A DNA stretch of 36,475 nt from Candidatus Fibrimonadaceae bacterium (GCA_031281155.1 JAITFT010000072.1:1-36475); one strand, 5' to 3'. Counted from the stretch's first letter, positions 204-34,502 are shown. Notes: a model not told the origin generated them from the letters alone. Program-made: numbers and translations.

Positions 204-210
204 GGGGGGT

Positions 211-216
211 AATGTA
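211..216 (-). promoter_or_regulatory. -10 element of gyrB (TACATT), leaderless class
   Basis: On the minus strand the sequence is TTTTTCTACATTACCCCCCATG. The hexamer ends 7 bases before the ATG, so transcription should start at or within a base or two of the start codon. No consensus -35 box is evident by eye. Confidence 0.7.
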
Positions 217-229
217 GAAAAATTTTACA

Positions 230-311
230 GGAAGAAGAGGGATTCGAACCCTCGGTTCTTGCGAACAACGGTTTTCGAGACCGCCCCGATCGACCACTCC
301 GGCATTCTTCC
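230..311 (-). tRNA. tRNA-Ser (anticodon CGA)
   Basis: The minus strand folds as a class II tRNA. The acceptor stem is GGAAGAA/TTCTTCC, with U8 and a GCCGG D arm. The anticodon loop is CTCGAAA (anticodon CGA, reads UCG). The long variable arm is GTTC-GCAA-GAAC, and the T arm is GAGGG-TTCGAAT-CCCTC. The D-arm and anticodon region closely resembles E. coli tRNA-Ser(CGA). CCA is not encoded; the bases after the acceptor stem are T-G-T. The discriminator would therefore be U73, unlike the G73 usual in bacterial serine tRNAs. The length without CCA is about 83 nt, slightly short because the variable arm is small. A T-run at about 221-225 lies between the tRNA and gyrB. Confidence 0.93.
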
Positions 312-322
312 AAGTGGGGGGT

Positions 323-328
323 AATATA
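323..328 (-). promoter_or_regulatory. -10 element of tRNA-Ser (TATATT)
   Basis: The minus-strand sequence is TTTACTATATTACCCCCCACTT, followed by the mature tRNA 5' end 11 bases after the hexamer. Because the product is a tRNA, this copy shows the recurring TAYATTAC element is a promoter -10 and not a translation signal. Confidence 0.75.
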
Positions 329-30668: not shown

Positions 30669-31450
30669 TACCCTGATGTATCGTAAACCTTTTCTGCATA
30701 CAATGCTGTAGCACAGGCGTATTCGCGGTTCATCTTGGCGATGAACTCAACGGAAATGCCTTTGGGGCACACAGCTTCGCATTCATAAAGGTTTGTGCAG
30801 TTTCCAAAGCCTTCTTTGTCCATTTGCTCAACCATAGCGAGAACTCTTTTTTGAGCTTCGGGTTTGCCTTGCGGTAAATACGACAGCTGGCTAACCTTTG
30901 CTGAAACAAAGAGCATGGCGCTTGCATTTTTACAAGCGGCAACGCAGGCACCGCAGCCTATGCAGGCGGCAGCGTCGAAAGAGTGATCGGAATTTACTTT
31001 TGGCACTGGGAGCGTATTTGCCGGCGGAGCATTGCCAGTGTTGATGCTGATAAAGCCGCCCGCTTGGATAATGCGATCGAATGCAGTGCGATCAACAACG
31101 CAGTCCCTGAGCACAGGGAATGCCGATGCGCGCCAAGGCTCAATAACGATGGTATCACCGTCTTTGAATTTACGCATGTGGAGCTGGCAAACGGTTATGA
31201 GGTCATCGGGACCGTGCGGGAGCCCGTTAATCACGAGCGAGCACATTCCGCAAATTCCTTCACGGCAATCGTGATCGAAGGCAAAGGCTTCCTTGCCGTC
31301 TTTCATAAGCTGCTCGTTCATAACATCCAGCATTTCCAGAAAAGACATATCTGGACAGATGTTTGAAAGCTTTACTGTTTCAAAGCTTCCTCTGGCTTGC
31401 GCATCTTTTTGCCGCCATACCTTTATTGTTAGGTTCATATTTCCGCTCAT
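30668..31450 (-). CDS. sdhB: Succinate dehydrogenase/fumarate reductase iron-sulfur subunit
   Basis: This is the electron-transfer subunit of complex II-type enzyme, between the flavoprotein and the membrane cytochrome. It is 260 aa. The [2Fe-2S] cysteines lie in [15 protein letters not shown], with the last one in TVCQLHM. The [4Fe-4S] and [3Fe-4S] cysteines lie in [15 protein letters not shown] and [16 protein letters not shown]. The form is the type-B protein of Bacteroidetes-like enzymes. The start ATG 31450 overlaps the sdhA stop (ATGA). In a fermentative, succinate-forming lineage the enzyme would run as a fumarate reductase. Confidence 0.95.
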
Positions 31451-33360
31451 TTGTAGCTCCTTGTTATAAGGTGTACATTTTCAAATTCTAAGTTTTCTTT
31501 GTTGAGTTCATGTGATTTGTTATCGCCTTTCCATTCCCAGGCTGCAACGTGACAGAACTTTTCGTCGTCGCGTTTTGCTTCGCCTTCGGGAGTTTGGTGT
31601 TCATCGCGGAAATGACCGCCGCAAGATTCCTCTCTGTAGAGAGCGTCTCTTGCCAGCAATTCTCCGAATTCCAAGAAATCGGCAACGCGTATGGCGTTTT
31701 CCAAAGTTTGGTTAAAGGAATCGTTGCTGCCAGGAACCTTGACATTTTTCCAGAACTCTTCGCGCAGGCTTACAATTTCCGATATGGCTTTTTCAAGCCC
31801 GGCTTTGTTGCGGCCCATGCCAACGTTATCCCAGGTAATGTGCCCTAACTCTCTGTGGAATTCGGTTACCGTTTTTTTGCCGTTAATGTTGAGCAAACGG
31901 TCTATAAAGGCCTTTGTGCTCTTTGCGGCATCTACGAACTCTGCTTGGCTGGTATCTACTTTTTCCAGTTTTGTGCCGGCAAAATAACCGCCTATGGTAT
32001 ATGGAATAACAAAGTAGCCATCTGCCAAACCCTGCATAAGAGCAGAAGCACCCAAACGATTTGCGCCGTGATCGGAGAAGTTTGCTTCACCTAAAACAAA
32101 GCAGCCGGGGACTGTGCTCATAAGGTTGTAGTCCACCCACAGACCGCCCATTGTGTAGTGGCTTGCGGGGTAAATGCGCATTGGGTTTTTATAGGGGTTT
32201 TCGTCTGTTATTTTTTCGTACATTTGGAAAAGGTTTCCGTATTTTGCGCTTACTCCGCTTTCGCCGACACGTTTAATGGCATCTGCAAAATCGAGGTAAA
32301 CAGCGCGTTTGGAGCTTCCAACGCCTAAGCCATTGTCGCAAACCATTTTTGAATTGCGGCTTGCAACATCGCGCGGCACAAGGTTTCCAAAGCTGGGGTA
32401 CTTTTCTTCTAGGAAGTAGTAACGTTCTGATTCTGGTATATCGCTTGGCTTGCGAGGATCGCCGCCTTTGCGAGGAACCCATACTCTGCCGTCGTTTCTC
32501 AGCGATTCGGACATTAGAGTTAGCTTGCTTTGGTAGTCGCCTGTTACCGGAATGCAAGTTGGGTGAATTTGCGTGTAGCAGGGGTTTGCCAGCAATGCGC
32601 CTCTTTTGTGGGCACGCCACATAGCGCCTACGTTACAGCCTTTTGCGTTTGTGGAAAGGTAGAACACGTTGCCATAACCGCCGGTTGCAATGCAAACTGC
32701 GTCTGCTTCGTGGCATTCGAGTTCGCCTGAAACTAGGTTGCGAACCACAATGCCTCTTGCCTTGCCGCCTACCAGAACCAAATCTAGCATTTCGCGGCGG
32801 GCGTACATTTTAACGCTGCCTTTTGAAACCTGCCTCATCATTGCTTGGTAAGCACCGAGCAAAAGCTGCTGGCCTGTTTGGCCGCGAGCATAAAAAGTTC
32901 TGGAAACCTGAGCACCGCCAAAGGAGCGATTGTCTAAAAGGCCGCCATATTCACGACCAAAAGGAACGCCTTGCGCTACGCAATGATCGATGATTAAGTT
33001 TGAGCACTCTGCCAAACGATGCACATTTGCTTCTCTAGCACGGAAATCACCGCCTTTGACGGTATCGTAGAAGAGGCGGTAAACGGAATCGCCATCGTTT
33101 GGGTAGTTGTGGGCAGCGTTTATGCCGCCTTGTGCTGCGATAGAGTGTGCGCGACGAGGGCTGTCTTGAATGCAAAATGCTTTTACATTGTAGCCAAGTT
33201 CGCCAAGAGAGGCAGCAGCCGAGGCTCCTGCCAAGCCTGTTCCCACCACTATCACGGTGAATTTGCGCTTATTCGCCGGGTTTACCTGCTTTAGCTCAAA
33301 TTTATGGCGTTCCCATTTTTCTGTGACTGGGCCGCCCGGAATATTTGCTTCTAATTTCAT
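31447..33360 (-). CDS. sdhA: Succinate dehydrogenase/fumarate reductase flavoprotein subunit
   Basis: This is the catalytic subunit that interconverts succinate and fumarate. It is 637 aa. The FAD-binding [11 protein letters not shown] is at 40-50, and the covalent flavin histidine is H72 in [29 protein letters not shown] and the [17 protein letters not shown] signature are present. It belongs to the type-B group with two-heme, single-polypeptide cytochrome (see the next gene). GGAGGTGAGC stands before the ATG, which overlaps the sdhC stop as ATGA. frdA would be an equally valid name; sequence alone cannot decide the physiological direction. Confidence 0.96.
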
Positions 33361-34466
33361 TGCTCACCTCCTTCTGTTGATTCTATTTGTTCTGCGTTTG
33401 CCGGTTGCTCTGCATTCTTTACTTCGGTTTCCTCTAGATCTTCTATATCGTCTTCTTTGATTTTTTTGTGTCCATGCCTTTTTGGCTTGCCTTTGCCATC
33501 TTTGTGCTTGAACTTTTCCTTGCCATCTTTATGCTTGAATTTTTCTTTGCCATCTTTGCTTTTGAACTTTTTCCCTTTGAATTTTGCGCTACCTTCGCCT
33601 TTGCGGAATTTTTCCCTTTCAACTATGAATTTAGCTCTTTCGGGATTCTTGGCAATAATTTTGGCAAAAATCCTTTGTTCATCGAGAGACCTTTCGGACA
33701 AGGCTCCAAGAGCAGCTTGATAGCCTGGATCTTTAGCTTGTTCGATGATGGCTTTTGCTTTTGGGTTTAAATTCACAATAGCCCAAGTGCCTGCTGCGGT
33801 TGCCGTAAAGCCGATAACGGCCGCAATGCAGCAAAGGATTGCCACTTTATCTATGATGGGGGTCCATTTTTGGTGGTTTATGCCCATTGTTTGGAATGCG
33901 CTTGAAATGGCATGCCACATGTGGAAGCCCAAGAGCAGCATAACGATTAGGTAAAATGTGGCAAATAGCGGGTTCCCCAGAATTTCAACTGTAGTGAGCC
34001 ACATATCGCGAACCACCAGACCACCTGCTACCTCTGGGTTTATGTAGTGGTAGTAAACGCCGTTGCGGAGTGTCCATATATGCCACACTAAAAAGGCTGC
34101 TAGTGCTAGGCCTGTCCAGATCATGACGAATGTTGGGAAAGCCTTTTTGCCTTTGCGCGCGCTCACCACGTAATCAACTGGGCCACGGGCTTTGTTGTTT
34201 TGCAGTTTCAGCGTAATTGCCATGTATAAATGGACTATAACCACTAAAGCCAGAGCTGCCTCTACTGAGTACAGAAAGAGCTTGGATTTGGTTAAAAGGT
34301 AGGAATAGGTGTTGAAGGCCCTTTGGGCTGCCTCCGGATCTGGCAAGAGCAGTTGTAGGTTGCCAACCATGTGTCCCAGCACAAAAAGCACCAGCATACA
34401 TCCTGTGGCACCCATAACCTGCTTCTTCCCTATGGAAGAGGAAAGGTAGGTTAAAAGCCATTTCAT
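33357..34466 (-). CDS. sdhC: Succinate dehydrogenase/fumarate reductase cytochrome b subunit with long charged C-terminal extension
   Basis: This type-B membrane anchor has five helices at about 17-40, 64-86, 111-133, 165-187 and 207-232. Candidate heme histidines are H32, H79, H129 and H182 or H185. It transfers electrons between menaquinone and SdhB. Type-B cytochromes usually end close after the fifth helix (about 200-260 aa). This one runs to 369, with an extra tail of about 137 aa. The tail holds a charged helix-like part (about 233-290) and three perfect-to-near-perfect nonapeptides of the form KFKxKDGKE at 300-326. A basic KPKRHGHKK and an acidic end rich in Glu follow. The extension is hydrophilic throughout, so it is soluble. 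It is the first gene of sdhCAB-rimI, with promoter at 34497-34502 and AGGAGA before ATG. Confidence 0.92.
33489..33569 (-). repeat. 27-bp tandem repeat (three units) in the sdhC extension
   Basis: Three consecutive 27-base units encode [18 protein letters not shown] and KFKHKDGKG. Third-base differences between units exist, so the repeat is not freshly duplicated, while the amino acid pattern is kept. Confidence 0.85.
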
Positions 34467-34496
34467 TTGCGTGTCTCCTAAAAGATAATCGGGAGT

Positions 34497-34502
34497 AATA
34501 TA
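34497..34502 (-). promoter_or_regulatory. -10 element of the sdhCAB-rimI operon (TATATT)
   Basis: The minus strand reads AAATTTCTATATTACTCCC, 30 bases before ATG 34466. The leader contains AGGAGA. Confidence 0.7.

Follow-up and report, generated by a model that had tools for sequence, protein, structure and literature searches.

The 36,475-bp stretch of DNA analyzed here (the window) is the entire contig C34 of a metagenome-assembled genome (MAG) of a Candidatus Fibrimonadaceae bacterium (G000; 2.57 Mb, 92% complete). Its genes are repeatedly preceded by the hexamer TAYATT, which in this Fibrobacterota lineage very probably acts as the −10 region of the housekeeping promoter, with the spacing between hexamer and start codon setting whether the mRNA is leaderless or leadered. 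A preliminary description had singled out 14 TAYATT sites, and all of them were recovered at the positions, on the strands and with the gaps that it gave. Since the window contains 77 TAYATT copies, about twofold more than the 39.6 expected, these 14 are a selected set, and the selection by itself proves little. Based on the GyrA protein encoded in the window, which shares 82 to 89% identity with those of termite-gut Candidatus Fibrimonadales/Fibrimonadaceae MAGs and 60 to 68% with those of Fibrobacter-type MAGs, the source organism is placed as a Fibrobacterota bacterium, probably living in the termite gut.

We set whole-genome pattern counts against reversed-pattern controls, which ruled out a chance origin of the motif. 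TCTAYATTAC occurred 136 times in the 2.57 Mb of G000, compared to 17 times for its reversed control, and 89 times with an ATG following within 4 to 10 nucleotides (nt), compared to 0 for the control; for this ATG-flanked form, ten further genus genomes gave 32 to 84 versus 0 to 3. Genes were further called, by codon usage only and with computed starts, in 20 additional G000 stretches, which together with the window made up 385 kb (15% of the genome), and their upstream regions were scanned. TTTCTAYATT was found 94 times in this sample (3.5 expected), and TTTCTA was the top positional 6-mer upstream of genes called from coding statistics alone. Canonical TATAAT was nearly absent upstream of called genes, yet it was not depleted overall (355 versus 271 expected). 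Replication covered three genomes in two genera, with G010 as a second species of the window's genus and G053 as a member of a sister genus. The small samples from Fibrobacter and other classes yielded too few gene calls to support firm conclusions; beyond the two termite-type genera, the analysis relied on pattern counts across the phylum.

The identity of the element as a transcription signal had initially been argued from a single tRNA. This target is tRNA-Ser (229-311, minus strand), with TATATT at 323-328 lying 11 nt from the mature 5′ end. In total, four of five tRNAs (tRNA-Ser, -Leu, -Pro and -Ala, but not tRNA-Gln) and the transfer-messenger RNA (tmRNA) carried the element 11 to 20 nt before their mature 5′ ends. 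Because these RNAs are also preceded by it, we interpret the element as a −10 box. Promoter matches at a score cut-off of 9 were present at 109 of 195 operon-first genes but only at 13 of 93 internal genes. For the tmRNA itself (L012:363-707), ARAGORN predicted an unusually short tag of 8 amino acids, GNDYAIAA.

The distance between hexamer and start codon was then analyzed independently of gene calls, using any ATG that opens an open reading frame (ORF) of at least 50 codons. Distances of 6 nt (n = 28) and 7 nt (n = 27) stood out from a background of ∼3.7 per position (Poisson P ∼ 1e-28), so that the hexamer begins 12 to 13 nt before the ATG, in line with the ∼12 bp of the TANNNT-like signal of bacterial TA-led leaderless genes. 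The preliminary description had named the lack of a 6- to 8-nt peak in such a plot as evidence against itself; in the 15% sample and the whole-genome pattern counts, the peak was found at 6 to 7 nt. Sorted by gap, the 120 promoters of the G000 sample fell at up to 5 nt (3), 6 to 7 nt (50), 8 to 12 nt (17), 13 to 20 nt (7), 21 to 45 nt (37) and beyond (6). A Shine-Dalgarno (SD) sequence of at least 4 nt, for which the background is 9%, accompanied 0/50 promoters at 6 to 7 nt, 0/17 at 8 to 12 nt, 3/7 at 13 to 20 nt, 25/37 at 21 to 45 nt and 2/6 beyond, a contrast of 0/67 (6 to 12 nt) versus 25/37 (21 to 45 nt; Fisher P = 2.5e-15). For the same four classes from 6 to 45 nt, the numbers of promoters and of those with SD were 25/13/4/25 and 0/1/3/15 in G010 and 53/22/4/24 and 0/0/2/16 in G053. 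At 6 to 12 nt, SD was thus as good as missing in G053 (0/75) and G010 (1/38) as well, as in TA-led leaderless genes. The link between distance and SD is genuine and recurs across samples, and the earlier claim that short-gap genes lack SD held at 6 to 7 nt in all three (0/50 in G000, 0/53 in G053 and 0/25 in G010). The claim that intermediate spacings do not occur had to be abandoned: about a seventh of the promoters (17/120) lie at 8 to 12 nt, without SD, and 7/120 lie at 13 to 20 nt. The individual long gaps were correct, but the long-gap class is not limited to 24 to 35 nt, as it spans 21 to 45 nt. The gap distribution is therefore bimodal, with a trough at ∼13 to 20 nt, rather than made up of two sharp classes.

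In the mechanism that we propose, AATTTTC directly followed by TAYATT would serve as the housekeeping promoter core without a conserved −35 element, and RNA polymerase would start ∼7 nt past the hexamer. A start codon 6 to 7 (or 8 to 12) nt past the hexamer would place the mRNA 5′ end at, or a few nucleotides from, the AUG and lead to leaderless translation, whereas one 21 to 45 nt away would leave a leader of roughly 15 to 40 nt with SD; an SD is more frequent at internal operon genes. The N termini of the SodB, Adk, FolD and TrxB proteins are, in our judgment against known homologs, complete, and the ATGs of these genes are thus very likely the true starts. The optimal hexamer-to-start distance for bacterial polymerase is 7 bp (PMC12825309); with such a start, transcripts of the short-gap class would begin on or adjoining the A of the ATG. 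Going by spacing, about a quarter of the sampled genes (70/288 in G000 and 75/281 in the less biased G053) are predicted to have no leader or almost none.

Alignment on the hexamer yielded the consensus AATTTTC TAYATT, with AC next in many copies, and TTTTCTACmTTCC in G053. In the position weight matrix, for which seeds were chosen by the hexamer alone, positions −4 to −1 were T81, T92, T86 and C75. The element resembles the extended −10 promoter (TGn-TATAAT) in that extra upstream bases appear to offset a missing −35, but the extension here is TTTC abutting the hexamer rather than TGn, with T92/T86 at −3/−2. Promoters without a partner (see below) carried A60 at −7/−6 and T72 to T94 at −5 to −2, and this shared bias rules out that the upstream A/T run is merely the other half of a palindrome. 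As had been noted by eye, no TTGACA-like −35 is conserved: TTGACA ∼17 bp upstream, as expected for sigma-70, showed no positional peak in the three samples, and no convincing peak was seen for TTTG in the same samples. The single exception is the tRNA-Ala promoter (upstream of L023:5533-5605, minus strand), the only one with a clear consensus −35, where TTGACA stands exactly 17 bp from TATATT; a TTGACA of this type may mark the strongest promoters.

Two sigma factors encoded in the genus are short, RpoD/RpoS-like and lack region 1.1 (L001 and L002; L117-L137); they are conserved at 94.5% and 83%, respectively. The more conserved one (L001 type) is present in 12/12 genus genomes with a mean identity of 94.5% and an invariant WWVRQNIIKAINEKARLVRISAEKELILRRF, and it is likely the factor that reads the element. 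None of the RpoD-like sigma factors of the MAG reached the NCBIfam RpoD cut-offs, and the candidate primary sigma differs from E. coli RpoD at the residues linked to TGn reading (H455 and E458). The Bacteroidota promoter consists of TAnnTTTG at −7 and TTTG at −33. A short primary-type sigma factor without region 1.1 and a lineage-specific promoter are common to both groups, but here TTTG shows no clear peak at −33 and the leadered class makes use of SD.

The promoter grammar extends beyond the window. Nine to ten adk orthologs of the genus (78 to 86% protein identity) keep a TTTCTAnnTT-like element 6 to 7 nt before the ATG, although their upstream sequences otherwise show no resemblance, and in none of these loci was the folD start pattern detected ahead of adk. 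TAYATT ∼20 to 25 nt before the gyrA ATG is retained, together with AGGA, in five Fibrimonadales genomes. Across 168 Fibrobacterota genomes, each genome of the window's genus contained 83 to 201 occurrences of TTTCTAYATT-N6-7-ATG, compared to 88 in G053 and roughly 2 to 30 in other genera of the family (∼17, versus ∼1 for the control, in the large genus g5, which is probably Fibrobacter; control, 0 to 3), and the pattern was at background level elsewhere in the phylum. Given these counts, the strong form of the grammar is a trait of two genera and a weaker form is a trait of the family. Together, the three genomes from two genera and this footprinting at adk and gyrA support the earlier suggestion of a lineage-specific promoter grammar with widespread leaderless genes, the latter as judged from promoter geometry.

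Actinobacteria and Deinococcota are already known to have leaderless genes with this type of −10. Those with TANNNT ∼12 bp before the start codon were established in Actinobacteria and Deinococcus-Thermus (Zheng 2011, PMC3160421), and a 2025 study showed the −10 role by experiment in Deinococcus and reported such motifs across bacteria (PMC12340547). The genes described here resemble them in that a −10-like hexamer stands by the ORF, SD is lacking, a −35 is not needed, an SD-led class exists alongside and the gene share is similar. They differ in the hexamer (TAYATT), in the TTTC directly upstream and in the fusion of many promoters back to back in one genus. A survey of 953 bacterial genomes did not name Fibrobacteres among the groups with leaderless genes (PMC3160421), and the open-licence papers searched contained no report of leaderless genes or relevant start-site mapping in Fibrobacter/Fibrobacterota, which is weak evidence. 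Fibrobacterota, important fibre degraders, would join the groups that appear to use leaderless mRNAs as a main expression mode. Their promoter code is simple enough to be read from sequence alone, and both gene-start annotation and expression tools require knowledge of it in these bacteria.

Many promoters of the window's genus were fused back to back into a near-palindrome (AATRTAGAAATTTCTAYATT) with 8 to 11 bp between hexamers, a feature missed in the preliminary description. Within the window, this arrangement (AATGTA-gaaaatttt-TATATT, 19377-19397, both strands, 9 bp between hexamers) serves gyrA (hexamer 19377-19382, minus strand; 24 nt to the ATG at 19352; SD AGGA; leadered) and a surA-like gene (hexamer 19392-19397, plus strand; 7 nt to the ATG at 19405; predicted leaderless), and ∼24 such sites were seen across L006-L025. 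Of 38 divergent pairs spaced by 8 to 60 bp, 24 fell in the 8- to 11-bp range (binomial P ∼ 4e-18), and only 2 convergent pairs were found. Fused pairs occupied 16 of 35 divergent gene gaps below 400 bp, the tightest of which measures 32 bp (CAT-gagagg-AATATA-aaaaattc-TATATT-accccc-ATG; L019, ∼15384-15416). About half of the pairs have both arms 5 to 12 nt from the respective start codons; others, such as gyrA/surA, have one leadered arm. Exact fused copies numbered 8 to 31 per genome in 12 genus genomes (control, 0 to 3), compared to ∼1 in the rest of the family and none in G053, and the fused form therefore looks like a genus-level compaction. Pair spacing is looser in G010 (9 to 18 bp). G053 (L076-L095) shares the leaderless grammar but has no compact divergent pairs, and its divergent gaps are almost all above 120 bp.

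Each arm of such a pair mostly obeys the spacing rule independently, and from this relation to their own ATGs both directions are predicted to be transcribed. We consider it reasonably probable that the ∼20-bp near-palindrome in this one termite-gut Fibrobacterota genus is a complete bidirectional promoter, in which two −35-less extended −10 boxes are fused and often fire leaderless genes both ways from 32- to 60-bp gaps. Since a single RNA polymerase would cover more bases than the promoter and the translation starts of two divergent genes take up, the two arms would have to be used in turn. In E. coli, the start sites of bidirectional promoters flank a shared −10 or lie inside it, commonly 18, 10 or 23 bp apart (PMC12825309). 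A symmetric −10 is likewise expected to drive both directions in E. coli and other prokaryotes (PMC12825309, PMC10268837), but here the two boxes are separate, non-overlapping and 8 to 11 bp apart, with predicted starts separated by ∼33 to 38 bp where neither arm has a leader. The titles and abstracts of the open-licence papers searched described no stereotyped bidirectional leaderless unit, again weak evidence. The fused form provides a natural, repeated test case for two polymerases sharing a minimal site; the sister genus, whose divergent gaps are wide, provides an evolutionary comparison.

The near-perfect symmetry and narrow spacing of sites such as AATATAGAAATTTCTATATT could also suggest an operator for a dimeric DNA-binding regulator instead of two promoters. 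We regard this as improbable, since each arm resembles single promoters and mostly keeps the 6- to 12- or 21- to 45-nt rule to its own ATG, promoters without a partner outnumber paired ones (67 versus 51), and arms stand alone at tRNAs and housekeeping genes. Slightly less credit still is due to the possibility that the boxes are secondary internal promoters, with short-gap mRNAs mostly starting further upstream and carrying ordinary leaders without SD. The adk promoter does lie within the final codons of folD (ATGA overlap), making coding and promoter constraints coincide there, and adk could also be read from the folD promoter; however, short-gap genes are mostly operon leading (42/50), many lie in 32- to 60-bp divergent gaps with no room for a further promoter, and none of the 67 carries an SD of at least 4 nt, compared to 36 of 81 internal operon genes without the element. 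That the U-rich TTTTCTATATT next to the ATG is no promoter but a translation signal on a longer transcript, e.g., a landing site for ribosomal protein S1, as discussed for a U-rich bias near the −10 in some phyla (PMC5397173), is highly improbable, given that the element also precedes tRNAs and tmRNA, stands 21 to 45 nt before genes that already have SD, favors the first genes of operons over internal ones and builds back-to-back palindromes in the DNA.

Several observations nevertheless weigh against the housekeeping-promoter interpretation. The 8- to 12-nt class (17/120) means that the start position is not rigid. A promoter match was missing from 163 of the 288 called genes of the G000 sample, and the remainder must therefore be served by other promoters or by operon transcription. 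Absolute G000 fractions are inflated up to ∼1.8-fold for the exact motif, as the contigs were partly picked for carrying matches (36 exact motifs in 385 kb versus 136 in 2,570 kb); the G053 sample was not picked by motif matches and gave a similar picture. The 16S rRNA, the source for the anti-SD sequence, was not found in G000 or 11 genus relatives. Finally, the leaderless state is predicted from promoter geometry and the candidate sigma factor was assigned by conservation.

The remaining sites of the window fall into the same two classes. Short gaps of 6 to 8 nt, agreeing with those first reported and predicting leaderless mRNAs, were found at gyrB (TACATT, TTTTTCTACATTACC, 211-216, minus strand; 7 nt to the ATG at 203), sodB (8784-9392; TATATT, 8772-8777, plus strand; 6 nt), adk (ATG at 10762; TACATT, 10769-10774, minus strand; 6 nt), folD (ATG at 11607; TATATT, 11616-11621, minus strand; 8 nt, or 6 nt in the overlapping TATTTT register), trxB (12735-13691; TATATT, 12722-12727, plus strand; 7 nt) and an ATPase-like gene (22157-23296; TATATT, 22145-22150, plus strand; 6 nt). 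The leadered class, with SD, comprises a small membrane protein gene (391-927; TACATT, 351-356, plus strand, divergent to the tRNA-Ser promoter; 34 nt), the GH53 gene (ATG at 3007; TATATT, 3038-3043, minus strand; 30 nt; AGGAGG), gdhA (ATG at 22020; TATATT, 22056-22061, minus strand; 35 nt), acpP (24116-24355; TATATT, 24076-24081, plus strand; 34 nt; AGGAG) and sdhC (ATG at 34466; TATATT, 34497-34502, minus strand; 30 nt; AGGAG).

The GH53-type protein (893-3007) is a secreted protein with long poly-serine linkers. The window further contains a flagellin gene (34640-35908), and a FliA/WhiG-type sigma factor (L004) is also encoded, consistent with the motility reported for termite Fibromonadaceae (PMC4704652).

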